A DNA stretch of 64,000 nucleotides from Nonomuraea angiospora (GTDB lineage Bacteria > Actinomycetota > Actinomycetes > Streptosporangiales > Streptosporangiaceae): positions 4,216,001-4,280,000 of the forward strand of contig NZ_JADBEK010000001.1 of NCBI RefSeq assembly GCF_014873145.1, read 5' to 3'. The position numbers and the translations under genes are program-made. This document shows, one piece after another, positions 44,805-57,834 of the stretch. How positions within the stretch are numbered: position 1 is the first letter of the stretch; each line of letters begins with the position of its first letter. Under the pieces are notes generated by a model. The model was given only the letters and a program-made list of their open reading frames with translations. It had not been told where the DNA came from and searched no databases.

Positions 44805-46250
44805 ATGACAGTCACCGCCTCAGCGGCGACGACCGAGACCCAGCCCTACCGCTGGCGCTGGGTCGCACTGTTCGTGATCCTGGCCGCCGAGGTCATGGAT
44901 CTGCTCGACGCGCTCGTCACCACGATCGCCGCCCCCACGATCCAGAAGGAGCTGGGCGGCAGCGACAGCATCGTGCAGTGGCTCGGCGCCGGATACACCC
45001 TGGCCATGGCCGTCGGCCTGATCACCGGCGGGCGCCTCGGCGACCTGTTCGGCAGGAAGCGCATGTTCGTGATCGGCGCGCTGGGCTTCACCGCCGCCTC
45101 GCTGCTGTGCGGCATCGCGATGAGCCCGGAGATGCTGATCGGGAGCCGGGTGCTGCAGGGCCTGTTCGGGGCCGTCATGCTCCCGCAGGGCCTGGGGCTG
45201 ATCAAGGAGATGTTCCCGCCGCAGGACCTGGGCAAGGCTTTCGGCATGTTCGGCCCGGTCATGACGATCTCGTCCGTGGGCGGTCCGGTGCTGGCCGGAT
45301 GGCTGGTCGACGCCGACTTCTTCGGCACGGGCTGGCGCATGATCTTCCTGATCAACCTGCCGCTCGGCCTGGCCGCCGCGCTGGCCGGCATGCGGTTCCT
45401 GCCCGAGTATCGCCTCTCGAACGCCACCAGGCTCGACCTCGTCGGGGTCGTCCTCGTCTCCCTGGCCTCGTTCCTGCTGATCTACCCGCTCATCCAGGGC
45501 CGCGAGCTGGGCTGGCCCGTGTGGACGTTCGTGTCCATGGCCGCCTCGATCGTGATGTTCGCGATCTTCGGCCGGTACGAGTCGCGCCGCGCCAGGTCCG
45601 GCAAGGACCCGCTGGTCACGCCCGGGCTCTTCCGCAAGCGCGCCTTCACCGGCGGTCTGGTCGCCGGCCTGGCCTTCTTCTCCGGCATGATGGGCCTCGG
45701 CCTCGTCTTCAACCTCTACACCCAGCTCGGCCTCGGCTTCACCCCGCTGGAGGCCGGTCTCACCGGGCTGCCGCAGGCGCTCGGCGGCGTCGTCGGCTTC
45801 GGGCTGGCGATGTCCGGCCTGCAGGAGAAGCTGGGCCGCGGCCTGCTGCAGATCGGCACCGTCGTCATGGCCGCGGGCGCGGCCGCGCTCGCCCTGACCA
45901 TCCACCTGGCCGGGGTCGACGTCAGCGGCTGGCAGCTCGCCCCCAGCCTCGCCTTCGTCGGCATCGGGATGGGCCTGACCATGGCCCCGTTCTTCGACAT
46001 CGTGCTCGCCGGCGTCGAGCCGCACGAGTCCGGGTCGGCCTCCGGCACCCTGACCGCGATCCAGCAGCTCGGCGGCGCGCTCGGCACCGCCGTGCTGGGG
46101 ACGCTCTTCTTCAACCTGCTGGCGCGCCAGTGGAGCTTCGGCTCGACGATGCAGGTCACCGTCTGGGTCGAGGTCGGGCTGCTGGCCCTGACGTTCGCCC
46201 TGTCCTACCTCCTGCCGCGCAAGGCCAGGCCGGGCGAGGCCGGCCACTGA
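44805..46250 (+). CDS. DHA2-family (EmrB/QacA) MFS multidrug transporter
   Basis: 481 residues, ATG 44805 with AAAGGAG upstream. Fourteen hydrophobic segments. LLDALVTTIAAPTIQKELG in TM1 (motif D1), GGRLGDLFGRKRMF (motif A) and RVLQGLFGAVMLPQGL (TM4) define the DHA2 family. It is probably drug or antibiotic export, induced through the TetR regulator next to it. Confidence 0.93.
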   Translation: MTVTASAATTETQPYRWRWVALFVILAAEVMDLLDALVTTIAAPTIQKELGGSDSIVQWLGAGYTLAMAVGLITGGRLGDLFGRKRMFVIGALGFTAASLLCGIAMSPEMLIGSRVLQGLFGAVMLPQGLGLIKEMFPPQDLGKAFGMFGPVMTISSVGGPVLAGWLVDADFFGTGWRMIFLINLPLGLAAALAGMRFLPEYRLSNATRLDLVGVVLVSLASFLLIYPLIQGRELGWPVWTFVSMAASIVMFAIFGRYESRRARSGKDPLVTPGLFRKRAFTGGLVAGLAFFSGMMGLGLVFNLYTQLGLGFTPLEAGLTGLPQALGGVVGFGLAMSGLQEKLGRGLLQIGTVVMAAGAAALALTIHLAGVDVSGWQLAPSLAFVGIGMGLTMAPFFDIVLAGVEPHESGSASGTLTAIQQLGGALGTAVLGTLFFNLLARQWSFGSTMQVTVWVEVGLLALTFALSYLLPRKARPGEAGH

Positions 46251-46292
46251 CGCCCCGTGGCGGGGCGCACGGTGAACCGGCCGGGTGACGGC

Positions 46293-47432
46293 TCACACCG
46301 CGAGGTGACGCTCGGCCCACTGCGCGATGTCGCGCCGCTCGATCGCGGCGGCCATCAGGTCGGGGAAGGCGTCGGGCGTGCACGCGAAGGCGGGCACGCC
46401 CATCGCGGCCAGCGCGGCGGCGTTCTCGTGGTCGTAGAACGGCGCGCCCTCGTCAGAGAGCGCCAGCAGCACGATCACCTGGACGCCGGCCTGCGTCATC
46501 GCGGCCACCCGGCGCAGCATCTCCTCCCTGACGCCGCCCTCGTAGAGATCGCTGATCAGGACGAAGATCGAATCGGTGGGCCGGGTGATGAGGCCCTGGG
46601 AGTAGGCGATGGCCCGGTTGATGTCGGTGCCGCCCCCGAGCTGGGTGCCGAACAGCAGCTCCACCGGATCGTGCAGCTGGTCGGTGAGGTCCACCACCGC
46701 CGTGTCGAACACCACCAGGGACGTCTTCAGCGACCGCATCGAGGCCAGCACCGCCCCGAACACGCTCGAATAGACCACCGAGGCCGCCATCGACCCGCTC
46801 TGGTCGATGCAGAGCACCACCTCGCGCTGCACCGACCGCTGCCTGCGGGCGTAGCCGACGAGCCGCGACGGGACGACGGTGTTCTTCTCCGGCAGGTAGT
46901 TCTTGAGATTGGCCCTGATCGTCCGGTCCCAGTCGATGTCGGCCACCCGCTTGGGGCGGTGCGTCCTGGCCGAGCGGTCGAGCGCGCCGGTCACGGCGGC
47001 CCTGGTCTTCTGGGCCAGCCTGCGTTCGAGCTCGTCCACCACCTTGCGCACCACGGCCCTGGCCGACTCGCGGGCCTGGTCGGGCATGACGCGGTTGAGC
47101 GCGAGCAGCGTGCCGACGAGGTGCACGTCCGGCTCGACCGCCTCCAGCATCTCGGGCTCCAGCAGGAGCCGGGTGAGATTGAGCTTCTCGATGGCGTCCT
47201 TCTGCATGACCTGGACGACCGTGGAGGGGAAGTACGCGCGGATGTCGCCGAGCCAGCGGGCCACGCGGGGCGCGGACGCGCCGAGCCCGCCCTCCCTGCC
47301 GCCCTGGTCGTAGACCGCCGACAGCGCGGCGTCCATCCGCGAGTCCAGGCCCTCCAGCCCGAGCCCGGTGCCGTCGGCGTCGCCGCCGCCCAGCACCAGC
47401 CGCCACCTGCGCAGGCGCTCGTCGTCGGTCAT
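46293..47432 (-). CDS. VWA-domain protein (CoxE-like), last gene of the MoxR operon
   Basis: 379 residues; ATG 47432 overlaps the DUF5682 stop (ATGA). The C-terminal half is a von Willebrand A domain with the MIDAS residues DQSGSMAAS, a Thr in LGGGTDINRA and Asp in ISDLYEGG. The N-terminal half is helical (ESARAVVRKVVDELERRL). MoxR ATPases act with VWA partners in assembly and remodelling of proteins; here the two genes share an operon. Function of this particular set is not established. Confidence 0.92.
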   Translation of the reverse strand: MTDDERLRRWRLVLGGGDADGTGLGLEGLDSRMDAALSAVYDQGGREGGLGASAPRVARWLGDIRAYFPSTVVQVMQKDAIEKLNLTRLLLEPEMLEAVEPDVHLVGTLLALNRVMPDQARESARAVVRKVVDELERRLAQKTRAAVTGALDRSARTHRPKRVADIDWDRTIRANLKNYLPEKNTVVPSRLVGYARRQRSVQREVVLCIDQSGSMAASVVYSSVFGAVLASMRSLKTSLVVFDTAVVDLTDQLHDPVELLFGTQLGGGTDINRAIAYSQGLITRPTDSIFVLISDLYEGGVREEMLRRVAAMTQAGVQVIVLLALSDEGAPFYDHENAAALAAMGVPAFACTPDAFPDLMAAAIERRDIAQWAERHLAV

Positions 47433-49846
47433 CCGTCCTCCTTTCCGAGGATCGCCAGCACGGTCGCGACGGCCGCCGCCGCGCGCTGCTCGTCCACGTC
47501 CTGCCGCCCTTCCCGCGCGCCGCTCCCGGCCGAGCGGACGCGCTCCCCGATCGCCCTGCGCTCGGGCGCGGCGAACCCGCCGAACGTACGGCGCAGCAGC
47601 GGCAGCACGTCGGTGAACTGCTCGCCGGACAGCCCCGTGAGCCACCCGTCCACCAGGCTCAGCAGCCGCGGATCGTGCACCAGCAGCAGCCCGCCGCCCG
47701 CCAGGAACCCCTCGACCCACGCCGCCGCCCTGGCCGGGACCTGCCCCCTGGACATCGCCCTGGCCATGCGGTCGCCCGCGTCGTCGAGCTCCCCCGCGTC
47801 GAGCAGGATCCTGGTGAGCCGCCCCTCGATGAGCCCGTGCAGGTCCTGCCGGTCACTGACGCCCCGCAGGGTGACCAGCCACCGGCTCCGCGGCGACACC
47901 TCCTCGCCGGTGCCGTCCGTCTCCAGGAGCGCGACGGCCGCGTGCACGGCGTCCACGTGCTTGAGCAGGCCGGCCGCCGCGTCGTCGTCCAGCCCCGTCA
48001 CCGCGACCGGCAGCCCCACGCGGATCCGCTCCAGCATCGAACGGACGATCACCGCCAGCCCCTCGGCCGGGGTGCCGCGCACGTCGCCGTAGCGGTGGGC
48101 GCGCACCATCGCGGGCAGCGCCGCCATCAGGTGCGTCACGTCGGTGTCCAGCGCCGCCCTGGCCGACAGCGCCGCCAGCACCTCGGGCAGCGCCTGCGGC
48201 AGGTCGGCCAGCAGGCACCGCTCGACCAGCGAGGTCAGCTCCGCCAGGGCCGTCCGGTCCGTCGCGGCCAGGTCCCTGGCCCGCTGCGCCGCCGCCCCGG
48301 CCACGGTGGTGCCCAGCGCGGCCTGCTCGATGAGCGCCAGGTCGTGCTCGGGCCGCCACCGCAGCGTCCACGTCTCCCTGAACGTGCCCTTCCCGCGCGA
48401 CTCGCCCAGCGTGCCCCAGTCGACGCCGAGCAGCCCGAGCCGGTGGAGCAGGTGGCTGCGGTCGAGGTCGAGCGGCTTGCGCAGGTCGAGGTCGATCTCG
48501 CGGTCGAGCGCCTCCGGCCTGAGCCGCAGGCGCCGCTGCTGATCGCGCAGGTCCCGCTGGAGCGGCACCATCGGGGTGCCGTCACTGACCTGGCCGAGCC
48601 GGTCGCCGACGACCATGCGCCGCTGGATCAGCTCCACGGCCAGGTCGTCGCCCTCGCACAGCACGGCCCTGGCCGCCTCGGTGACCTCGCCGAGCCCGGC
48701 CAGGGGCCTGCCGCGCAGGGCGGCCAGGGTGTGCGCGAGGCGTACGGACTCGATGACGTGCGCGGACGACACCGCCAGCCCCTCCTCGCGCAGCACCGCG
48801 GCGGCCTCGGCCAGCCACCGCTCCACGGGCCGGTCGGTCGCCCCGAACAGGTGGTGGTACCAGCCGGGCGAGGTGATCCCCGCGCCGTAGCCGCTCCACG
48901 ACGCCAGCCGCCCGTACGTCCACGGCACCCACGTCAGCTCGGCCTTCACCTTGGGCAGCCCGCGCAGGATCGCGTTGTCCTTGGCGGCGGACGGGAGCGG
49001 GCCGGTCAGCGCCGGGACGTGCCAGGCCCCGCAGATCACCGCGATCCGCCCGTAGCCCTCCTTGAGGGCCGCGCGCAGGGTCTTGCGCATGTACGCCTCG
49101 CGCCTGGCCTCCCGCTCGTCCGGCTCGTAGCCCTCGCGTACGGCGGCCATGGCCTCGGCGATCACCTCGAAAGGCGTGTCGCCGCGGTGCTCGACGACGT
49201 CCTCCCACCAGCGTTCGGGGTCGTCGTATCCGGCGGCCGCGGCGAGCGAGCCGATGGGGTCGGCCCGCAGACCGGACGTGCCGCCGCCCCGGCCTTCGTC
49301 CTCGTCCTCGGTCTCGCCCCGCTCTTCGCCCCGCTCTTGGTCCCGCTCTTCGCTCTCCGCCAGGGAATGGGCCGCCGGGAGGTCGCAGAAGCGCACCGGG
49401 ACGCCGGTCGCGGTGCCGTACAGGATGGCCTGCCATTCGGGCGAGAACGCGGCGAACGGCCAGAACGCGGCCTTCGCGGGCGCCCCCGGCACGTGGGCCA
49501 GCAGAGCGACGGGCGGCTCCAGCTCGGGCGCGAGCGTGACGAGCGGGTCGGCCTCGGGCGGGCCCTCGATGAGGATGGCGTCGGGGCGCAGGCGTTCGAG
49601 CTCCTGCCGCACGGCCCGCGCGGACCCCGGCCCGTGGTGCCGCACGCCGAGCACCGACACGATCGGCCCACCCGCGACACCGGGACCCGAGACGGCCGAC
49701 CGGCCGCCGACGCCGGGGAGGACCGTGGCGGCCTGCCTGCCCGCGGCACCGGGACCTGGGACGGTCGGCCCGCCCGCGACACCGGCACCCGAGACGGCCG
49801 GCTCGCCCGCGACACCCGGGACACCCGGGACCGGGAGGATGCTCAT
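47429..49846 (-). CDS. DUF5682-family protein with N-terminal repeat extension
   Basis: 805 residues; ATG 49846 overlaps the MoxR stop (ATGA). The family core begins near residue 65 (VLGVRHHGPGSARAVRQ). Motifs: RHHGPGS (69-75), LIEGPPE (92-98), WWEDVVEH (213-220) and CGAWHVPALTG (272-282). The spaced G-x-x-H, Glu and G-x-W-H pattern resembles the TraB/Tiki/EreA-type hydrolase superfamily, but this is my inference. The long C-terminal part is helical. The first about 62 residues are Gly/Pro/Val repeats not expected in the family; GTG inside the VSVLGVRHH region is an alternative start. A charged insert (residues 163-190, Glu/Arg/Asp) is also present. Confidence 0.85.
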   Translation of the reverse strand: MSILPVPGVPGVAGEPAVSGAGVAGGPTVPGPGAAGRQAATVLPGVGGRSAVSGPGVAGGPIVSVLGVRHHGPGSARAVRQELERLRPDAILIEGPPEADPLVTLAPELEPPVALLAHVPGAPAKAAFWPFAAFSPEWQAILYGTATGVPVRFCDLPAAHSLAESEERDQERGEERGETEDEDEGRGGGTSGLRADPIGSLAAAAGYDDPERWWEDVVEHRGDTPFEVIAEAMAAVREGYEPDEREARREAYMRKTLRAALKEGYGRIAVICGAWHVPALTGPLPSAAKDNAILRGLPKVKAELTWVPWTYGRLASWSGYGAGITSPGWYHHLFGATDRPVERWLAEAAAVLREEGLAVSSAHVIESVRLAHTLAALRGRPLAGLGEVTEAARAVLCEGDDLAVELIQRRMVVGDRLGQVSDGTPMVPLQRDLRDQQRRLRLRPEALDREIDLDLRKPLDLDRSHLLHRLGLLGVDWGTLGESRGKGTFRETWTLRWRPEHDLALIEQAALGTTVAGAAAQRARDLAATDRTALAELTSLVERCLLADLPQALPEVLAALSARAALDTDVTHLMAALPAMVRAHRYGDVRGTPAEGLAVIVRSMLERIRVGLPVAVTGLDDDAAAGLLKHVDAVHAAVALLETDGTGEEVSPRSRWLVTLRGVSDRQDLHGLIEGRLTRILLDAGELDDAGDRMARAMSRGQVPARAAAWVEGFLAGGGLLLVHDPRLLSLVDGWLTGLSGEQFTDVLPLLRRTFGGFAAPERRAIGERVRSAGSGAREGRQDVDEQRAAAAVATVLAILGKEDG
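49656..49830 (-). repeat. About 33-bp tandem repeats in the DUF5682 N-terminus
   Basis: Units starting with CCCGCG(A/G)CACCGG recur near 49669, 49740, 49773 and 49807 and encode Gly/Pro/Val/Ala-rich peptides (PGVAGGPTV type). Confidence 0.7.
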
Positions 49847-50907
49847 GACACCTCGCGGCAGGCGCGGTAGAAGTCGCGCCAGTCGGAGCGCTCGCGCACC
49901 ACGGTCTCGAGGTATTCGCGCCACACCACCCGGTCGGAGACCGGCTCCTGGACGACGGCTCCCACGATCCCGGCCGCCACGTCGGAGGGCCGCAGCACGC
50001 CGTCGCCGAAGTGGGCCGCCAGGGCGATGCCGCTGGTGAGCACCGAGATGGCCTCGGCCGTGGACAGGGTGCCGCTGGGCGACTTGACCTTGGTGCGCCC
50101 GTCCTCGGTGACGCCGGTGCGCAGCTCGCGGAACACCGTCACCACCCGCCGGATCTCGGCCAGCCCGGTCGTCGTCTCCGGCAGCTCCAGGGCGCGGCCG
50201 AGCTGGGTGACGCGGCGCGCGACGATGTCCACCTCCTCCTCGGCGGTGGCCGGGACCGGCAGCACGACCGTGTTGAACCGGCGGCGCAGAGCGCTGGACA
50301 GCTCGTTGACGCCCCGGTCGCGGTCGTTGGCCGTGGCGATCACGTTGAAGCCGCGCTCGGCCTGGACCTCGCGGTTGAGCTCGGGGATCGGCAGCGTCTT
50401 CTCCGACAGCACGGTGATCAGGGCGTCCTGCACGTCGGAGGGCATCCGGGTGAGCTCCTCGACGCGGGCGACCCGGCCCTCGGCCATCGCGCGCATCACG
50501 GGCGACGGGGTCAGCGCCTCGATCGAGGGGCCCTCGGCCAGCAGCCTGGCGTAGTTCCAGCCGTAGCGGATGGCCTCCTCGGCGGTGCCCGCGGTGCCCT
50601 GCACGAGCAGCGTCGAGTCGCCGCTGATGGCGGCGGCCAGGTGTTCGGACAGCCAGGTCTTCGCCGTGCCGGGCACGCCGAGCAGCAGCAGCGCGCGGTC
50701 GGTGGCCAGCGTGGCGACGGCCACCTCGACGATGCGGCGCGCGCCCACGTATTTGGGGGTGATGCGGTCTCCGTCGCCCAGGATGTACGTGGTCACGGCC
50801 CACGGGGAGAGCTTCCAGCCGGGCGGCCTGGGCCGGTCGTCGTCCTTGGCCAGGAAGGCCAGCTCCTCGGCGTACTGGTCTTCCGCGTGCGGACGCAGAA
50901 CAGTCAT
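49843..50907 (-). CDS. MoxR-family AAA ATPase
   Basis: 354 residues; ATG 50907 overlaps the DUF5691 stop (ATGA). Walker A is GVPGTAKTWLSEHL; the Walker B region reads ARVEELTRMP, with Glu where Asp is usual (LDEINR). Sensor 1 is VIATANDRDRG and the Arg finger region is SSALRRRFNTV. It belongs to AAA_5/MoxR. It presumably remodels a client in concert with the VWA and DUF5682/DUF5691 proteins. Confidence 0.93.
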   Translation of the reverse strand: MTVLRPHAEDQYAEELAFLAKDDDRPRPPGWKLSPWAVTTYILGDGDRITPKYVGARRIVEVAVATLATDRALLLLGVPGTAKTWLSEHLAAAISGDSTLLVQGTAGTAEEAIRYGWNYARLLAEGPSIEALTPSPVMRAMAEGRVARVEELTRMPSDVQDALITVLSEKTLPIPELNREVQAERGFNVIATANDRDRGVNELSSALRRRFNTVVLPVPATAEEEVDIVARRVTQLGRALELPETTTGLAEIRRVVTVFRELRTGVTEDGRTKVKSPSGTLSTAEAISVLTSGIALAAHFGDGVLRPSDVAAGIVGAVVQEPVSDRVVWREYLETVVRERSDWRDFYRACREVS

Positions 50908-52493
50908 GGGTGAAGCTCCTTGTACATGTCGGCACGGAAACGCAGCAGGGCGGCCACCTGCTGGACGGACTCCACGGGCGAGTAGCTCAGCGCCAGCGGG
51001 AACAGGGCCGGGTCGATGCGCTCGCCGGCCAGCTTGACCAGCTCGCCGAGGTTCCACGGCTGCCTGGTGGCCACCTTCACGATCTTGCGGAGGACGGCCG
51101 TGGCCAGGCCCTCGCGCCAGTGGGACGACACTCCGCCCAACACCATGATCAACTGGCTGTCCAAGTCATGCTTTTTCACGAAATCGGCAGCGAGTTTCTG
51201 CTGCTCGTCGGCCGGGAGGGACTCCAGGAGGTCCGCGATCGGGTCCCAGCCGAACATCGCCCGCGCCCACTCCGGGTCCTTCTGCAGCACGGCGGCGCGT
51301 ACCCAGGCGGCCTTCACCTCGGCGTCCCAGTCGGGGATCTTCATCTTGAGCAGCGCCGCGGGCGGGTGACCCCAGATCGACAGCGGGGCGCGGGCGAGGA
51401 TCTGCTGCAGCCACCAGGCCCGCTCGCCGATGCCCCTGGGCGGCTTGGGACGGATGCCGTCGCGTTCCATGGCCTTGTCGCAGTCTCGCGGGGCCTCGAC
51501 CGCGATGACCTTCCGGGAGATGGTCACGCAGGCCCGCGCCCTTTCGGCCATGCGCTGGGACATGCGCGAGCCGGGCAGGCGGGTCAGGAGGTTGGCGGCG
51601 GCCTGGCGCACCTCCCGGCGGCGGTCGTCGAGCGCGCTCTCCAGGAACGGCTCGTCGTCCATGCTCAGCCCGTCGGCCAGCACTTCCACGAACTCGGCCC
51701 GGTCGTCGGGCGTCTCGCGCTCCCACGTGCTCTCCAGCAGCCGCCTGGCCTGCGCGGGATCGGCCGTCCTGAGCGTGCGCAGGTGCGCCCGCCGGTCCGC
51801 GGCGCCGCCCAGCTCCCACGTCTCCCCGGTCGGCTCCTCCAGGAGGTAGTCCCAGGCGGGATTGAGCCCGGCCAGCCACCGGCCCCGCTGCCCGGCCAGG
51901 ACCCCCAGGTGGACCCGGATCGAGCGATCCCGCCGTCCTTTCTCCAGGAGCTCGGGCAGCACGTACGGCGGCACCCTCCGGCCGGTGGCGGCGGCCGCGG
52001 CCAGCCATTCGGGCAGCAGCCGCTCGTGCTCGCCACCCATGATCCGCACCAGCCGCTCCGCCGCCCGCCTCCCCACGGCCACCCGCTCCTCGACAGGAGC
52101 CGCCTGAGCTTCCGGGGACGCTTCAGAGGACCCGTCCCGCCCCCCGACCGCCCCGGCCGCCTGCTCCCGCCGCCCAGCCGCGCCGGTCGCCTGCTCCCGC
52201 TGCCCGGCGGCGTCAGGCGCCTGCGGCTCGGCCGCGTGGGGCGCCTGCTCCTGCGGCCCGGCGGCGTCAGGCGCCAGTGGCCCGGCCGCGTGGGGCGCCT
52301 GCTCCTGCGGCCCGGCGGCGTCAGGCGCCTGCGGCCCGGCCGCGTGGGGTGCCTGCTGCCCGACCGCGCCCGCCTTGCGTCCGGCCCTTCGGCGCGCCAC
52401 TTCCACGGCTGCGGCATCAAGCAGATCGCCCTGGTACGGCCTGCGGTCGGTCCCCACGAGCGCCGTCGAGGCCAGCTCTTCCCAGCCGGTCAC
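50904..52493 (-). CDS. DUF5691-family helical-repeat protein
   Basis: 529 residues; GTG 52493 overlaps the SWIM gene stop (GTGA). The opening WEELASTALVGTDRRP and the C-terminal two thirds (helix pairs with EVRQAAANLLTRLPGSRM, HEAT-like) are typical of the DUF5691 family that accompanies SWIM/MoxR/DUF5682/VWA genes. A repeat linker (residues about 42-115) separates the two. No enzymatic motif is seen. Confidence 0.85.
   Translation of the reverse strand: MTGWEELASTALVGTDRRPYQGDLLDAAAVEVARRRAGRKAGAVGQQAPHAAGPQAPDAAGPQEQAPHAAGPLAPDAAGPQEQAPHAAEPQAPDAAGQREQATGAAGRREQAAGAVGGRDGSSEASPEAQAAPVEERVAVGRRAAERLVRIMGGEHERLLPEWLAAAAATGRRVPPYVLPELLEKGRRDRSIRVHLGVLAGQRGRWLAGLNPAWDYLLEEPTGETWELGGAADRRAHLRTLRTADPAQARRLLESTWERETPDDRAEFVEVLADGLSMDDEPFLESALDDRRREVRQAAANLLTRLPGSRMSQRMAERARACVTISRKVIAVEAPRDCDKAMERDGIRPKPPRGIGERAWWLQQILARAPLSIWGHPPAALLKMKIPDWDAEVKAAWVRAAVLQKDPEWARAMFGWDPIADLLESLPADEQQKLAADFVKKHDLDSQLIMVLGGVSSHWREGLATAVLRKIVKVATRQPWNLGELVKLAGERIDPALFPLALSYSPVESVQQVAALLRFRADMYKELHP
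52160..52370 (-). repeat. 54-bp tandem repeats in the DUF5691 linker
   Basis: Three to four units of 54 bases encode 18-residue blocks of the type PQEQAPHAAGP(L/Q)APDAAG. The unit near 52220-52330 is almost exactly duplicated. Confidence 0.85.
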
Positions 52494-53932
52494 AGGATCA
52501 CCGCCGTTCCTTCGTCGTCCCAGGTGGTCAGGGGCCGCAGCCCGCGCGGCGTCCATTCGACGGCCACGGTGACCGGACGCCCGCCGGAGACGGCGATCAG
52601 CCGCCAGGGGTCGCGGGCCGCGCGATGCAGCGGCAGGCCGCCGATCGAGTCGCGGCCCGGGACCACCCCGGCCAGCACGAGCGGCCACGACTCGGTCCAC
52701 GGATCCTCGCCCAACACCCCGGCCACCTCGTCGAGCGCCTCCTCCGGCGACACCCCGGGCGGCGTCCCTCCAACGAAACCGCCCGCGCCGGAGCCATACC
52801 GTACGGCGTCATCCGTGCCGCGGTCGTGGCGGGCGGCGACCAGCGCTCGCAAGGGGGCGGCGCCCGGGTAGAACGTGAGATCGGCCTCGATCGTCGTCCC
52901 CGTGACCAGGGAGGCGTCCAGCGGCTGCCCCTGCGGCGCGAACGAGAGCACGAGAGCCGCCCGCCCGCTGCGCCGCCCCCGCAGCCAGACCCGCCGCGAG
53001 GTCAGCCGGTCCTGCTCCTCGTCCCGCCTGCCCAGCACGTCCCACTGGTCGCGCACCGCGGGCCCGGCCAGCACCTCCTCCTTGGCGACCGGAAAACCGA
53101 CCCGGCTGAGCACGGTCTCGGCCAGCGCCCCGGGCAGCTCCGCCCGCCGGCGGTAGGCGACGGCGAGCAGGTGGATCAGCGCGTATTCCTCCAGCAGCCG
53201 CCCCGGCCAGTCGTCCTCCGCCCGGACCCGGACCAGCCTGGAGACGACCCCCGCCACGCCGGGCGCCTGGGCGTCGATGAGCCGCTTGGCCAGCCCCTCC
53301 CATTCGTGCTCGGCGGCCCCCGCCAGCCCCTGCCGCACCTGGTCGTCGAGCCACCGCTCCAGCTCGCTCAGCCCGGCGGCGACGCGCCCGTGGCGGACGG
53401 ACTCCGCACCCATCCGCGACGATCCACCGGACCGCCCGGCGCCGGAGACACCGCCGCCGCCCTCACCCGAGGACACCTCGGCCCGCCCGGCGCCGTCGCC
53501 CTCACCGGAGGACGCCTCGGCGGCCCTCTTCGCCCGCACCGCCTCGATCTTGGCCGCTTCCTTCGCCGCGCGCTCGGCCCGCGCCTCCACCCACTCGGTC
53601 ACCCACTGCGGCGCGCCCTGCTCGACGGACACCCCTCCGGCCGCCCACATGAGCAGCAGCCCGAGCGCGTGCTTGCATGGGAACTTACGGCTCGGGCAGC
53701 TGCACCGGTAGGCGGGCTCGGTCAGGTCGACGCAGGCGAGGTAGGGCTTGGCGCCGCTGCCCTCGCACTCGCCGTACACGACCGTGCCCGTCGTGCCGCA
53801 CGCCGACCATTTGCCGGGCGCCGCGACCTTCTGCGCGGCCGACCGCGACGCCGCGTCCGGGGCCAGGGCGAGCACCTGATCACGGCTCCACCGTTCGATC
53901 ACCTGCCGCAGACTAGCCACCTCCACCGACAT
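52490..53932 (-). CDS. SWIM zinc-finger protein, first gene of the MoxR operon
   Basis: 480 residues from ATG 53932 (MSVEVASLRQVIERW). The SWIM zinc finger is YRCSCPSRKFPCKHALGLLL (CxCx(n)CxH, about residues 76-95). A Lys/Ala/Glu-rich coil and a Ser/Gly-rich linker (SSGEGDGAGRAEVSSGEG) follow, then a helical domain and a beta-rich C-terminus. SWIM fingers are thought to mediate DNA or protein contacts. The operon runs SWIM, DUF5691, MoxR, DUF5682, VWA with 4-base overlaps at every joint. Confidence 0.92.
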   Translation of the reverse strand: MSVEVASLRQVIERWSRDQVLALAPDAASRSAAQKVAAPGKWSACGTTGTVVYGECEGSGAKPYLACVDLTEPAYRCSCPSRKFPCKHALGLLLMWAAGGVSVEQGAPQWVTEWVEARAERAAKEAAKIEAVRAKRAAEASSGEGDGAGRAEVSSGEGGGGVSGAGRSGGSSRMGAESVRHGRVAAGLSELERWLDDQVRQGLAGAAEHEWEGLAKRLIDAQAPGVAGVVSRLVRVRAEDDWPGRLLEEYALIHLLAVAYRRRAELPGALAETVLSRVGFPVAKEEVLAGPAVRDQWDVLGRRDEEQDRLTSRRVWLRGRRSGRAALVLSFAPQGQPLDASLVTGTTIEADLTFYPGAAPLRALVAARHDRGTDDAVRYGSGAGGFVGGTPPGVSPEEALDEVAGVLGEDPWTESWPLVLAGVVPGRDSIGGLPLHRAARDPWRLIAVSGGRPVTVAVEWTPRGLRPLTTWDDEGTAVIL

Positions 53933-54014
53933 TTCGCGCCCCGTCCGCGAGATGCCCAACCACCGGGAATGAACCACCCACCTTGTCCTGATTTATCGGC
54001 ATAAACTCTGCTAG

Positions 54015-54560
54015 GTGGAGTTGCGCACCTACCCCGACGGCCCGTCGATCCAGGTGCCCGACGAGGCGGCGGCCCTGGCCAGCCCGCTCGACGGGCAGCT
54101 CGTCCTGGACGGGAACCTCTTCCTACGCAGGGACGTGACGGGCGCCCCGGTGGCGTTCGTCGAGCGCCCGCCCGTCGCGGCGGCCCTCGACCTGCTCCCC
54201 CACCCCGAAGGCGGCTGGTTCAGGGAGACGTGGAGATCGTCCGTGACCTTCCGCCCGGACGGCTACCCCGGGCCGCGGGCCAGCGCCACGGGCATCTACT
54301 TCCTGCTGAATCCGGGCGAGGAGTCGGTGCCGCACCTGGTCAGGTCGGACGAGGTCTGGCTGTGGCACCGCGGCGGCCCGCTGAGCCTGACGATCGGCGA
54401 CTCCGTGGTCACGCTGGGGCCCGACGTGGAGCAGGGCCAGGTGCCCCAGGCGATCGTGCCCGGCGGCGTGTGGCAGTCGGCCCGCCCGGCCTCCGACGAG
54501 GCGGTACTGGTGAGCTGCATCGTGTCCCCAGGCTTCGATTTCGCCGACTTCATGGCTTAG
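54015..54560 (+). CDS. Cupin, DUF985 family
   Basis: 181 residues. The core LDLLPHPEGGWFRETWRS and GIYFLLNPGEESVPHLVRSDEVWLWHRGG is characteristic of DUF985/cupin_5. The last part VPGGVWQSARPASDEAVLVSCIVSPGFDFADFMA completes the family. The first 45 residues are an extra segment. GTG 54015 is the start I used; TTG 54021 is possible. It ends 22 bases before the NACHT gene and may be cotranscribed. Enzymatic role is unknown. Confidence 0.88.
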   Translation: MELRTYPDGPSIQVPDEAAALASPLDGQLVLDGNLFLRRDVTGAPVAFVERPPVAAALDLLPHPEGGWFRETWRSSVTFRPDGYPGPRASATGIYFLLNPGEESVPHLVRSDEVWLWHRGGPLSLTIGDSVVTLGPDVEQGQVPQAIVPGGVWQSARPASDEAVLVSCIVSPGFDFADFMA

Positions 54561-54582
54561 CAAAGCCTGTATATAGGGAGGC

Positions 54583-57500
54583 ATGCCAGGCATTGAGGCG
54601 GCGCTGACGGCCGCGGGCAAGTCGATCGCCGAACGTGCCATGCGGGAGTGGCTCGCCACCCGGGCCGCGCACAAGGAGCGCGGTTCGGAGCTCAAGGACC
54701 TCATCCAGGGCGGCTTCCGTGACCGGCTGGCGCCCAGGAAGTTCGACAACCAGCTCCAGGGCATCGCGCTGGCGGTGGAGGGGCGGCTGTCCCGGCTGCT
54801 GGATCAGGAGTTCCGCGGGCTGGACGAGCAGGCGCGGGCCGCCGTGCTGCTGGAGGTGGTTCACGCCCTGCGGCAGGCGGACCTGTCCGACGCCGCCCTC
54901 TTCGAGGCCGACGCCGACCCCGCCAAGCTCGCCGGGCGCGTCATCGCGCGGCTGCCGGAGCCCCGGCTCGGGGAGGCGGAGGACCAGCTGTACGGGGTGC
55001 TGCTCGCCGAATGCGTCGACTGCCTGACGGGCATGATGCGCCAGCTCCCCCAGTACGTGCCGCGGGCGGCCACGGAGAGCCTGGCCCGGCTGAGCGGCCT
55101 GGCCGAGGGCATGGAACGCCTGCTCGCCCGCATGCCCCTGCGGACGCTGGAGGCGCCCGAGGGCCGCCAGGACGACGACGCGTTCCAGCGCCACTACCTC
55201 GGCTTCGTCAGCCGCACTCTGGACGAGGTGGAGCTGTTCGGGGTGCGGGTGGAGAACTACCGCCCCCGAACGTCGCTGAGCGTCGCCTACATCAGCCTCA
55301 ACGTCTCGGCCGGCGAGCGCGGGCGCCGCGCCCCCGAACGCCTCTCGGTCGCCTCGCTCACCGGCCGCCCCACGGCGGAGCTCGGCACCGAGCGCATCGA
55401 GTCGGCGCTGGGCCGCGAACGCCTCATGTTGCTGCGCGGCGACGCGGGCTCGGGCAAGAGCACGCTGCTGCGCTGGCTGGCCGTCACCGCCGCCCGCGGC
55501 GACTTCTCCGGCGCCCTGTCCGACTGGAACGGCTGCGTCCCCCTGATGATCAAGCTCCGCAGCCACGCCGAGGGCAGGTTCCCCGCGCCGCCCGCGTTCC
55601 TGGACGACATCGCCCAGGAGGTCTCCGGACGCATGCCGCGCGGGTGGGTGGAGCGGGTGCTGGAGTCCGGCCGCGGGCTGCTGCTGGTGGACGGCGTGGA
55701 CGAGCTGCTGGTACGGCACCGCCCGGCCGTGCGGGAGTGGCTGTCGCGGCTGCTGGCCGCGTACCCGGGGATGCGCGTGGTGGTGACCTCGCGGCCGACC
55801 GCGGCGGACGCGCGGTGGCTGGCCGACGAGGGGTTCGCGGCGGCGACGCTCGAGCCGATGACGCCCGGCGACCTGCGGGAGCTCATCCGGCAGTGGCACG
55901 TGGCGATGCGCGACTGCCCCAGCCTGCCGTGCGCGCCCGAGGAGCTGGAGGGCTACGAGGTCGCGCTGCTGGCCCGCATGGAGTCCAACCCCCACCTGGG
56001 GGTCGTGGCGTCGACGCCGCTGCTGGCCGCAATGTTGTGCGCGCTCAACCTCGACCGCCGCACGCAGCTGCCGCCCAATCGGATGGGCTTCTACAACTCG
56101 GTGCTCAGCCTGCTGCTGGACCGGCGGGACGCCGAACGCCGGATCACCGACGAGGTCTCCCTGGACCCTGACCAGAAGGTCTGGATCCTGCGCGACCTCG
56201 CCTGGCGGCTGGTGTCCATGGGGCGGTCGGAGCTGTCGAAGGCCACGGCGCTGAAGAGCGTCGAGCGCAAGCTGGCCTCGATGACCCGCATGCCATATCC
56301 GGCCGCCGACGTGCTCGAACACCTGCTCCGCCGGTCCGGCGTGCTGCGCGAGCCGGTGCCCGGCCGCATCGACTTCGCCCACCGTACGGTGCAGGAGTAC
56401 CTCGCGGCGGGCCAGCTCGTGGAGGACGAGGACGTGGACGCGGCGGTCGAGCGCGCGCATCTGGACCAGTGGCGCGAGGTCGTGGTGATGGCCGCCGGGC
56501 ACGCGACCGGCCGCGTGCGCAGGGAGCTGCTGGCGGGCCTGCTGGACCGCGCCGACCAGGGCGGGCCGCACTCGCGGCGGCTGCGGTTACTGGTGGCGGG
56601 GTGCCTGGAGACGATCCAGGAGATCCCGGTGGAGCTGCGCGACCGCATCGAGGCGTGCCTGGCTGAGGTGATCCCGCCGCGCTCGGAGGTGGAGGCGGGC
56701 ATGCTGGCGGCGGTGGGCGAGGAGATCCTGCGGCGGCTGCCCGACGACCTGTCCCGTCTGTCGCCGCTGCGGGCGGCCCACACGGTGCGGACCGCCTGGT
56801 TGATCAACGGGCCGGAGGCGCTGGACAAGCTCGCGGGGTACGCGGCCGATCAGCGGTGGGCTGTCCGCAAGGAGCTCAACGAGGGCTGGAACTACTACGA
56901 CGCCGACGCCTACGCACGACGCGTCCTGGCCGGAGTGGACACGGCCACGATCCCCGACATCCGTCTTCTTCGCGCGGTGGCGCACTTGCGCGAGGCCAAG
57001 GCCCTGACCGTCAACCTGGAAGAGTCGCTCACCGACCTCGGCTTCCTACGGAACGTACCGCAGGTGAAGATCCTCAACCTGCACGACGTCGACACGGACT
57101 CCCTGGAGGACGTGGAGGCGTTGCCCGCATTGGAGGCGCTCTGGGTCTCGCTCGACACACCACGCCCCCTCGACCTGGAGGTTCTGTCCAAGCTTCCCCG
57201 GCTGAGTGATCTCACGATCTGGAACGCCGGATTCGACGATCTGAGCTTTCTCGATCGGATCCCGCGATTGCTGGCACTGGGTCTGGATCTCCCGCCCGGC
57301 GATCAGACCGACTGGATGGGCCCGCTGTCTCGGCAAACCGAGCTGCGGGAGTTGTACATCTATCGCAGCCACCGACCGATACCGCCCGAGACGTTCGCCG
57401 GAATGCGTCACCTGAATTCGCTCACGTTGGGCGCGCCCGGGGAGATCGGCGACTGCCTGAAGGGCCTGCCGCGGGCTTCGATGGAGACACTGCAGCTCAT

Positions 57501-57834
57501 CGGCCCGGCACGGCTGGACCTGGCGGAGCTGGAGCACTTCCGCCTCGGAGGCCTCTGGCTGCGGGATCTCGACATCGGCGATCTCAGCCCGCTCCGCAGC
57601 CAGGAGCACCTCGTCCAGTTGGGCCTAGACGGTTGCCGCATGGTGGCCGACCTCGCGCCGCTCGCGCAGCTCCCGCATCTGCAGACATTGCGCCTTGTAG
57701 ACACGCTCGACGTCATCGACCTCGCGCCTCTGGCGGGAAAGCGAGGTCTCGCCGTGGTCCTCAGTGCCCATCAACGCGTCGCCAACGAGCACCTGCTCCG
57801 CGGCACCGTCAAGATCCGGTACCTCGGCACCTGA
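54583..57834 (+). CDS. NACHT-LRR STAND ATPase (immune-sensor type)
   Basis: 1083 residues. Residues 1-190 are helical, like NACHT N-terminal helical domains (NNH-type). The NACHT module has Walker A GDAGSGKST (286-294), Walker B LLLVDGVDEL (366-375) and sensor TSRP (402-405). A winged-helix/helical region follows with DFAHRTVQEYLAAGQLVEDEDV (a NACHT hallmark). From about residue 820 to the end are leucine-rich-repeat-like strands (VKILNLHDVD, LSDLTIWNAG, LVQLGLDG). This matches bacterial NACHT proteins, several of which give phage resistance. No nuclease or TIR effector is seen at the N-terminus. Base use near the 3' end is less GC-rich. Confidence 0.9.
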   Translation: MPGIEAALTAAGKSIAERAMREWLATRAAHKERGSELKDLIQGGFRDRLAPRKFDNQLQGIALAVEGRLSRLLDQEFRGLDEQARAAVLLEVVHALRQADLSDAALFEADADPAKLAGRVIARLPEPRLGEAEDQLYGVLLAECVDCLTGMMRQLPQYVPRAATESLARLSGLAEGMERLLARMPLRTLEAPEGRQDDDAFQRHYLGFVSRTLDEVELFGVRVENYRPRTSLSVAYISLNVSAGERGRRAPERLSVASLTGRPTAELGTERIESALGRERLMLLRGDAGSGKSTLLRWLAVTAARGDFSGALSDWNGCVPLMIKLRSHAEGRFPAPPAFLDDIAQEVSGRMPRGWVERVLESGRGLLLVDGVDELLVRHRPAVREWLSRLLAAYPGMRVVVTSRPTAADARWLADEGFAAATLEPMTPGDLRELIRQWHVAMRDCPSLPCAPEELEGYEVALLARMESNPHLGVVASTPLLAAMLCALNLDRRTQLPPNRMGFYNSVLSLLLDRRDAERRITDEVSLDPDQKVWILRDLAWRLVSMGRSELSKATALKSVERKLASMTRMPYPAADVLEHLLRRSGVLREPVPGRIDFAHRTVQEYLAAGQLVEDEDVDAAVERAHLDQWREVVVMAAGHATGRVRRELLAGLLDRADQGGPHSRRLRLLVAGCLETIQEIPVELRDRIEACLAEVIPPRSEVEAGMLAAVGEEILRRLPDDLSRLSPLRAAHTVRTAWLINGPEALDKLAGYAADQRWAVRKELNEGWNYYDADAYARRVLAGVDTATIPDIRLLRAVAHLREAKALTVNLEESLTDLGFLRNVPQVKILNLHDVDTDSLEDVEALPALEALWVSLDTPRPLDLEVLSKLPRLSDLTIWNAGFDDLSFLDRIPRLLALGLDLPPGDQTDWMGPLSRQTELRELYIYRSHRPIPPETFAGMRHLNSLTLGAPGEIGDCLKGLPRASMETLQLIGPARLDLAELEHFRLGGLWLRDLDIGDLSPLRSQEHLVQLGLDGCRMVADLAPLAQLPHLQTLRLVDTLDVIDLAPLAGKRGLAVVLSAHQRVANEHLLRGTVKIRYLGT

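Follow-up and report, generated by a model that had tools for sequence, protein, structure and literature searches.

Several described molecular machines consist of a MoxR ATPase and a partner protein with a VWA domain, among them NorQ-NorD, CbbQ-CbbO, RavA-ViaA, and CoxD-CoxE. According to the cited portions of the work on NorQ-NorD, a finger of the VWA protein sits in the pore of the MoxR ring, and the ring twists its VWA partner and remodels a client that is probably held at the metal ion-dependent adhesion site (MIDAS) (PMC13036017, PMC9976466). The passage cited from PMC3893208 counts two MoxR ATPases in E. coli K-12 and refers to Snider and Houry 2006 for a MoxR subfamily that takes its name from YehL. 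Here we analyze a five-gene operon of Nonomuraea angiospora, located in a stretch of 64,000 nucleotides of contig NZ_JADBEK010000001.1 (hereafter the window), that has the MoxR and VWA pair of these systems together with a SWIM zinc-finger protein and proteins of the families DUF5691 and DUF5682. No DUF5682, DUF5691, or SWIM partner is described for the known systems in the portions of their literature cited here. The clients of NorQD, CbbQO, and RavA-ViaA are known. Our preferred reading, which we hold at about even confidence, is that the operon encodes a protein-remodeling machine of the YehL-type MoxR-VWA kind around DUF5682, a probable enzyme, and that it serves the host as a stably inherited system for maintenance or stress, not as a phage-defense cassette. 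What we observed directly are the gene set, its motifs, its co-occurrence, its fusions, and its pattern of inheritance; a cellular role in stress or maintenance is likely.

The genes and junctions of the operon are as follows (window coordinates; domain scores are for Pfam models, and junctions were read from the sequence).

52490..53932, minus strand: SWIM zinc-finger protein, 480 amino acids (PF04434, 26.5 bits; CxCx6CxH motif)
52490..52493, minus strand: GTGA overlap of the SWIM stop and the DUF5691 start
50904..52493, minus strand: DUF5691 protein, 529 amino acids (PF18944, 435.2 bits)
50904..50907, minus strand: ATGA overlap of the DUF5691 stop and the MoxR start
49843..50907, minus strand: MoxR AAA+ ATPase of the YehL type, 354 amino acids (AAA_5, PF07728, 133.8 bits)
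49843..49846, minus strand: ATGA overlap of the MoxR stop and the DUF5682 start
47429..49846, minus strand: DUF5682 protein, 805 amino acids (PF18934, 920 bits)
47429..47432, minus strand: ATGA overlap of the DUF5682 stop and the VWA start
46293..47432, minus strand: VWA_CoxE protein with a MIDAS motif, 379 amino acids (PF05762, 187.9 bits)

In placing five minus-strand genes in the order SWIM-DUF5691-MoxR-DUF5682-VWA at 46293..53932, an earlier sequence-only reading of this DNA had both the coordinates and the domain calls right, and its 4-base stop/start overlaps are present at all four junctions (GTGA, ATGA, ATGA, and ATGA). Two starts are possible for the SWIM gene, the ATG at 53932 and a GTG at 53977. 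The fixed stoichiometry that the same reading had drawn from the overlaps is unsupported. Among 107 loci of the window type (class A, defined below), 4-base overlaps occur 43, 58, 53, and 67 times at junctions 1 to 4, DUF5691 and MoxR lie on opposite strands in 30 loci, and SWIM and DUF5691 form one open frame in 10. Since the overlaps vary among relatives, in some of which the genes are divergent or unlinked, they are no proof of stoichiometry. A scan of positions 46000-55000 for RNA families gave 0 matches.

The two proteins that would form the motor resemble those of a cluster in E. coli. The window MoxR protein is 42% identical to YehL over 352 residues (E value 8e-83), and a BLASTP comparison with the first 364 residues of RavA was not significant (best E value 0.056 over 25 residues); judged by these pairwise comparisons with the two E. 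coli proteins, it appears nearer to YehL than to RavA. Among class A MoxR relatives scored, Walker A is intact in 103/103 and a Glu-Glu Walker B is present in 103/103. The R-V/F-E-E signature of this Walker B also occurs in 19 rows of classes B, C, and D and in YehL, in contrast to RavA, which has the canonical Asp-Glu (L-D-E) where the aligned YehL-type proteins have Glu-Glu. Similarly, the window VWA protein is 36% identical to E. coli YehP over 368 residues and gave a match of only 13 bits with a ViaA model, and the MIDAS sequence DQSGSM is kept in 99 of the 102 VWA relatives scored. By analogy with NorQ-NorD, MoxR would form a hexameric ring into which the VWA protein docks, and ATP hydrolysis would make the ring twist whatever the MIDAS of the VWA protein holds. 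DUF5682, which in class B is fused to VWA, would for that reason be the central partner, and its N-terminal domain, with an invariant His/Glu/Arg-Glu/His set, may act on the remodeled target or be switched by it. The SWIM protein and the HEAT-like DUF5691 protein would then serve as the arm that recruits the target, with DUF4132 proteins possibly standing in for DUF5691 in class B and in class C, the class of E. coli.

The modeled DUF5682 protein has an N-terminal alpha/beta domain followed by C-terminal helical repeats (mean predicted local distance difference test [pLDDT] score, 79.9). In the N-terminal domain, the residues H/E/R/E/H are invariant among 184 sequences, and these invariant His, Glu, and Arg residues suggest that DUF5682 is a probable enzyme. 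The motifs follow a fixed order, with a His after strand 1, a Glu after strand 2, an R-E/D-x-x-M helix, and a G-x-x-H after a late strand. This order resembles that of the motifs in the EreA/ChaN/TraB-TIKI hydrolase superfamily. Among 20 DUF5682 members, sub-threshold Pfam matches to ChaN were found in 3 and to TraB in 1, and a search of PDB sequences with a DUF5682 profile returned four weak matches only, with E values of 0.28 or worse. The family model PF18934 scores the window protein at 920 bits and E. coli YehM at 330.8 bits, and the two are 26% identical. A number of single-member records (P0248, P0250, P0252, P0257, P0260, and P0361) show DUF5682 joined to AAA_5, VWA, SWIM, or DUF4132; these joins are perhaps products of frameshift or deletion in Escherichia.

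To place the operon among its relatives, genes were called and clustered in stretches of about 20 kb at 47 DUF5682 loci, which came from DUF5682 searches of 246 Actinomycetota and 54 Nonomuraea genomes. The window set belongs with three related architectures; all four share MoxR, DUF5682, VWA, and a protein with a zinc motif. Class A, the window type, consists of SWIM, DUF5691, MoxR, DUF5682, and VWA; it was also found on replicons of Deinococcus, Rhizobium, and Hymenobacter, and in Hymenobacter SWIM and DUF5691 are in one protein of 1009 amino acids. Class B comprises a DUF4132 protein, a protein of about 1600 amino acids without a Pfam match, MoxR, a DUF5682-VWA fusion, and a SWIM protein. 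The same class B clusters recur in 8/8 loci (Pfam was run on one of them, L062), and in all 8/8 the fusion is a single open reading frame of 1186-1340 amino acids. Class C, the E. coli type, has a DUF4132 protein, MoxR, DUF5682, VWA, and a YehQ-like protein in 6/6 actinobacterial loci; in Pseudomonadota, DUF4132 and MoxR were found in 8/8 loci, two of which run off the end of the stretch, and the class C set is annotated in Agrobacterium vitis. Class D, present in 6/6 loci, contains a protein bearing a C...C...CKH motif, another one of about 460 amino acids (in one case the two are fused), VWA, MoxR, and a divergent DUF5682. The window genome carries classes A, B, and D, and its further DUF5682 operons, of classes B and D, lie on the same contig (G000:C1) at 2866490-2869141 (L062) and 10610033-10611889 (L063).

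The E. coli K-12 cluster, in the order yehI, yehK (small), yehL, yehM, yehP, and yehQ, is like the window operon in its MoxR (42%), DUF5682 (26%), and VWA (36%) proteins and in the Glu-Glu Walker B. It differs in gene order and in having a DUF4132 protein (YehI) where the window has DUF5691, and YehQ has only the zinc (SWIM) motif in common with the window SWIM protein, without full-length homology. Beside the intact yehI gene, the yehF-yehH region (L002, 2475-6270; yehH is annotated as a pseudogene) has matches that mark it as the remains of another DUF4132 gene. The sequence-only reading had stated that no experimental function is known for this combination, which agrees with the literature that we found and overlooks the E. 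coli K-12 version. Among open-licence papers we found none that names DUF5682 or DUF5691, and subscription work may exist; papers that mention yeh genes together were genome notes only, and a search for SWIM with MoxR or VWA gave nothing on this set among the titles listed. We would tentatively go one step further than the preferred reading and suggest that all of these architectures may belong to one ancient, unnamed family, with a Glu-Glu MoxR ring, a VWA adaptor, a DUF5682 enzyme that is a new EreA/ChaN/TIKI-like branch gated by remodeling, a zinc protein, and an exchangeable DUF5691 or DUF4132 recruiter. This wider proposal is possible and is held with clearly less confidence.

Of the two proteins of the presumptive recruiting arm, DUF5691 is predicted to be a HEAT-like helical protein. 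Its AlphaFold2 model is all-helical with a mean pLDDT of 82.4, mostly above 90 from residue 140 or so, and has a low-confidence segment at residues 38-122. An imperfect repeat rich in Ala, Pro, Gly, and Gln lies near the N terminus (window 52130-52380, minus strand), within these low-confidence residues. The SWIM motif is present in 94 of the 101 class A relatives scored, and of the five proteins SWIM varies most (mean identity 0.75 and lowest 40-column window 0.63 among 12 Nonomuraea loci). No signal of homology to DUF5691 was detected for either DUF4132 or the class B protein of about 1600 amino acids.

The five genes recur together. We fetched 80 named class A loci, of which 15 were set aside for short flank (including L126 and L145), and all five genes are present in the 65/65 loci with enough flank, a recurrence beyond chance. 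In 44 of these 65 loci the five genes are collinear, and in 21 they are not all on one strand, SWIM-DUF5691 being divergent. DUF5691 and DUF5682 also co-occur among whole genomes. DUF5691 scores above the Pfam cut-off in 17/246 Actinomycetota, all of them among the 19 genomes with DUF5682, and in 8/146 Cyanobacteriota, which are exactly the 8 with DUF5682 above the cut-off. Dropped from these counts were 3 Actinomycetota genomes and 7 Cyanobacteriota genomes with sub-cut-off DUF5691, and one cyanobacterial genome with only sub-cut-off DUF5682. Pooled over 392 genomes, 25/25 genomes with DUF5691 above the cut-off have DUF5682, with a nominal chance of about 2e-37, a figure uncorrected for relatedness. 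The genes may also be kept together without being neighbors. For three of the sampled cyanobacteria (G305, G369, and G421), which are among the 25 genomes, a search of the 20 kb surrounding DUF5682 gave no partner gene, and at L126 and L145 no MoxR or VWA match was found near DUF5682, with flank short on one side of each; in all of these cyanobacterial genomes (5/5) DUF5691 and VWA are kept elsewhere.

The genes that surround the operon differ from group to group. In Nonomuraea, class A loci have MFS, TetR, enolase-like, cupin, nucleotidyltransferase, and aldehyde dehydrogenase genes as neighbors. In the Streptomyces-type loci of the first set (L044-L050), a small gene with a B12-binding domain adjoins DUF5691 on the opposite strand in 7/7, and succinyl-CoA ligase subunit genes lie near the operon in 6/7. 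No outside gene common to all these neighbor groups was seen, and the links within groups bear weakly on the two alternatives that follow.

CoxE is the VWA partner of CoxD, and the VWA protein of the window belongs to the VWA_CoxE family. The operon might thus serve in the maturation of a specific enzyme by inserting a metal cofactor, possibly molybdenum, much as NorQD does for nitric oxide reductase and CoxD for carbon monoxide dehydrogenase; metal insertion by these other MoxR proteins is described in the portions of their literature cited here. In E. coli, remnants of molR/DUF4132 lie next to the locus, and a citation in the consulted part of PMC8533742 gives molR as a requirement for the use of molybdate. 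The B12-binding gene beside DUF5691 in the Streptomyces-type loci would also fit a cofactor role, but it does not recur at 12 Nonomuraea loci, and the link to molR runs through DUF4132, a subunit missing from class A. Moreover, no molybdenum or carbon monoxide dehydrogenase gene was named among the Pfam-scanned neighbor clusters (clusters c33 and c37 were left out of the scan, and two others had no match), and for Deinococcus the cited part of PMC8533742 reports no change of moeA and moeB in parallel with that of the DUF4132 gene. We consider cofactor insertion unlikely.

SWIM fingers are found in DNA-associated proteins, and a WGR domain is present on the DUF4132 protein of L069, the sole class C protein scanned. 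It is conceivable that the system serves the maintenance of nucleic acids or responds to DNA damage, with WGR-DUF4132 or SWIM recognizing damage or bound proteins and MoxR-VWA-DUF5682 remodeling or clearing them. A gene with an IMS domain (Y-family polymerase-like) is located within a few kb of the class A operon at 3 loci (c28-c30; L054, 2658-4292), a recurrence limited to one actinobacterial family. In D. radiodurans, one gene for a DUF4132 protein and one for a WGR protein are strongly upregulated on DdrO depletion (cited part of PMC8533742). However, no WGR match was found in the window proteins or in classes B and D (one locus each), nor in YehI at an E value of 0.001. We regard this alternative as quite unlikely.

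The pairing of MoxR and VWA is also found in the ternary conflict systems of Kaur et al. 2020 (PMC7159879), in which, as in the window operon, further components accompany the pair. The sequence-only reading had pointed to this resemblance, and in such an anti-phage system MoxR-VWA would set a threshold, SWIM and DUF5691 would act as sensor, and DUF5682 would be a toxic effector. The third component of the ternary systems, as listed in the cited text, is VMAP, iSTAND, FtsH, or a beta-propeller, none of which was found in Pfam scans of the five genes and the listed window neighbors, and the bpMoxR model gave a sub-threshold match only (25.5, with a cut-off of 27). The main text of PMC7159879 mentions YehL, YehM, and SWIM 0 times. 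Three marks of conflict systems are given there: effectors that vary within a constant framework, segments of high variability, and genes that are gained, lost, and transferred among closely related genomes. In the window operon the variable VWA effector is missing: a VWA tail longer than 60 amino acids occurs in 1 of the 103 class A relatives, and the gene set is constant in the 65 loci whose flank was long enough. The low conservation of SWIM, which ranks last among the five proteins, speaks for the conflict reading, but mean identities among the 12 Nonomuraea loci (MoxR, 0.96; VWA, 0.90; DUF5682, 0.85; DUF5691, 0.82; and SWIM, 0.75) are ordinary next to those of seven neighboring genes (0.72-0.91; 8-12 loci each).

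The distribution of the genes can be read in both directions. Several paralogous classes in one genome and a patchy occurrence at the phylum level (DUF5682 in 19/246, 8/146, and 11/249 genomes, with patchiness among genera of 11/171) would suit a defense system, as would the lack of yehM-yehL in lineages 2 and 3 of Shigella sonnei (reported in the cited part of PMC12795559). Within narrower groups, however, DUF5682 is found in 54/54 Nonomuraea genomes, with a match of class A strength (at least 546 bits) in 52/54 (class A status was checked by neighbors at 12 loci), and yehM is found in 5284/5426 E. coli genomes, 5166 of them with at least 80% cover. A MoxR tree with 76 of the 80 named loci sets 73 Actinomycetota apart from the other three and is largely family-wise; the exceptions include Cellulomonas and a Propionibacteriaceae bin, which fall among Nocardiaceae in a weakly supported part. 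The window DUF5682 was matched by 21/72,556 plasmid records (some of them chromosome-sized) and by 1/50,697 phage records, and PADLOC-DB 2.0.0 has 0 families matching any of the five proteins at an E value of 0.001. The phage record (L218, MT835988.1) is an unverified "Bacteriophage sp." faecal scaffold that carries MoxR-DUF5682-VWA and is likely bacterial DNA.

A possible defense gene does adjoin the window operon. It encodes an NNH1-NACHT protein of 1083 amino acids (window 54583-57834, plus strand; NACHT, 75 bits) and lies between Cupin_5 and nucleotidyltransferase genes, which are neighbors in other Nonomuraea. A full-length homologue stands beside the operon in 1 of the 80 named loci (L094, 1480-4863, of Thermoactinospora rubra) and in 0/11 other Nonomuraea class A loci; there is a fragment in L073, which is 1 of those 11, and no NACHT homologue was found in the remaining loci searched (47 of the first set and 80 named). 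We therefore rejected this gene as a part of the system, as it sits between the conserved neighbors c7 and c12 and is only sporadic in relatives; it is a sporadic, partly decayed, possible defense gene.

Taken together, we consider a conflict or anti-phage function very unlikely, and we set defense aside as the principal explanation: the marks of conflict systems are mostly absent, PADLOC gave 0 matches, and the genes are near-fixed within Nonomuraea and E. coli. The resemblance to conflict systems of the MoxR-VWA kind that the sequence-only reading had suggested is not supported, with bpMoxR below its cut-off, PADLOC without matches, the marks in the cited text of PMC7159879 for the most part absent, and the neighboring NACHT gene only sporadic. 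Near-universal presence, which it had named as a finding that would speak against its idea, holds within Nonomuraea and E. coli and does not hold at the phylum level (19/246). Of its two suggestions, a protein-remodeling or a defense complex, remodeling is the best reading (Walker A and MIDAS are intact in nearly all relatives scored, DUF5691 is predicted to be helical, and DUF5682 keeps its enzyme-like invariant residues) and defense is kept only as a very unlikely alternative.

Several observations weigh against the remodeling machine that we prefer, or against the wider family built on it. In the Pfam search with the DUF5682 N-terminal domain, unrelated families such as CBM46 scored equally well or better than the hydrolase families; comparison of that domain with EreA/ChaN/TIKI profiles was not significant, with the positive control, the EreA-ChaN pair, weak too; and Foldseek and VIA gave no EreA or ChaN among the rows shown, which were filled by the helical C-terminal part. 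Because no homology between DUF5691 and DUF4132 is detectable, the "functional replacement" of one by the other rests on gene context, and class A SWIM proteins have little in common with those of classes B and C beyond the zinc motif. The phylum-level patchiness given above also counts against it. Finally, the genome-reduced E. coli strain DGF-298 is without yehI to yehQ, according to the cited part of PMC10652928, so the function is not essential there; this points to dispensability in the laboratory and gives no hint of function.

Our findings argue against calling this operon, which is conserved in many actinomycetes, a defense system, plausible as that label is. RavA has been studied, and YehL and its partners are without a function in the literature that we found; if the family proposed here is real, YehL, the second E. 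coli MoxR protein, would be the motor of an enzyme and not a plain chaperone. Treating the window operon, the E. coli cluster, and the two further architectures as one family gives YehL a defined set of partners (DUF5682, VWA, a zinc protein, and a scaffold), a Walker B signature, candidate active-site residues, and genomes in which the genes are unlinked and yet kept together, and the function of the YehL subfamily would thereby become directly testable.

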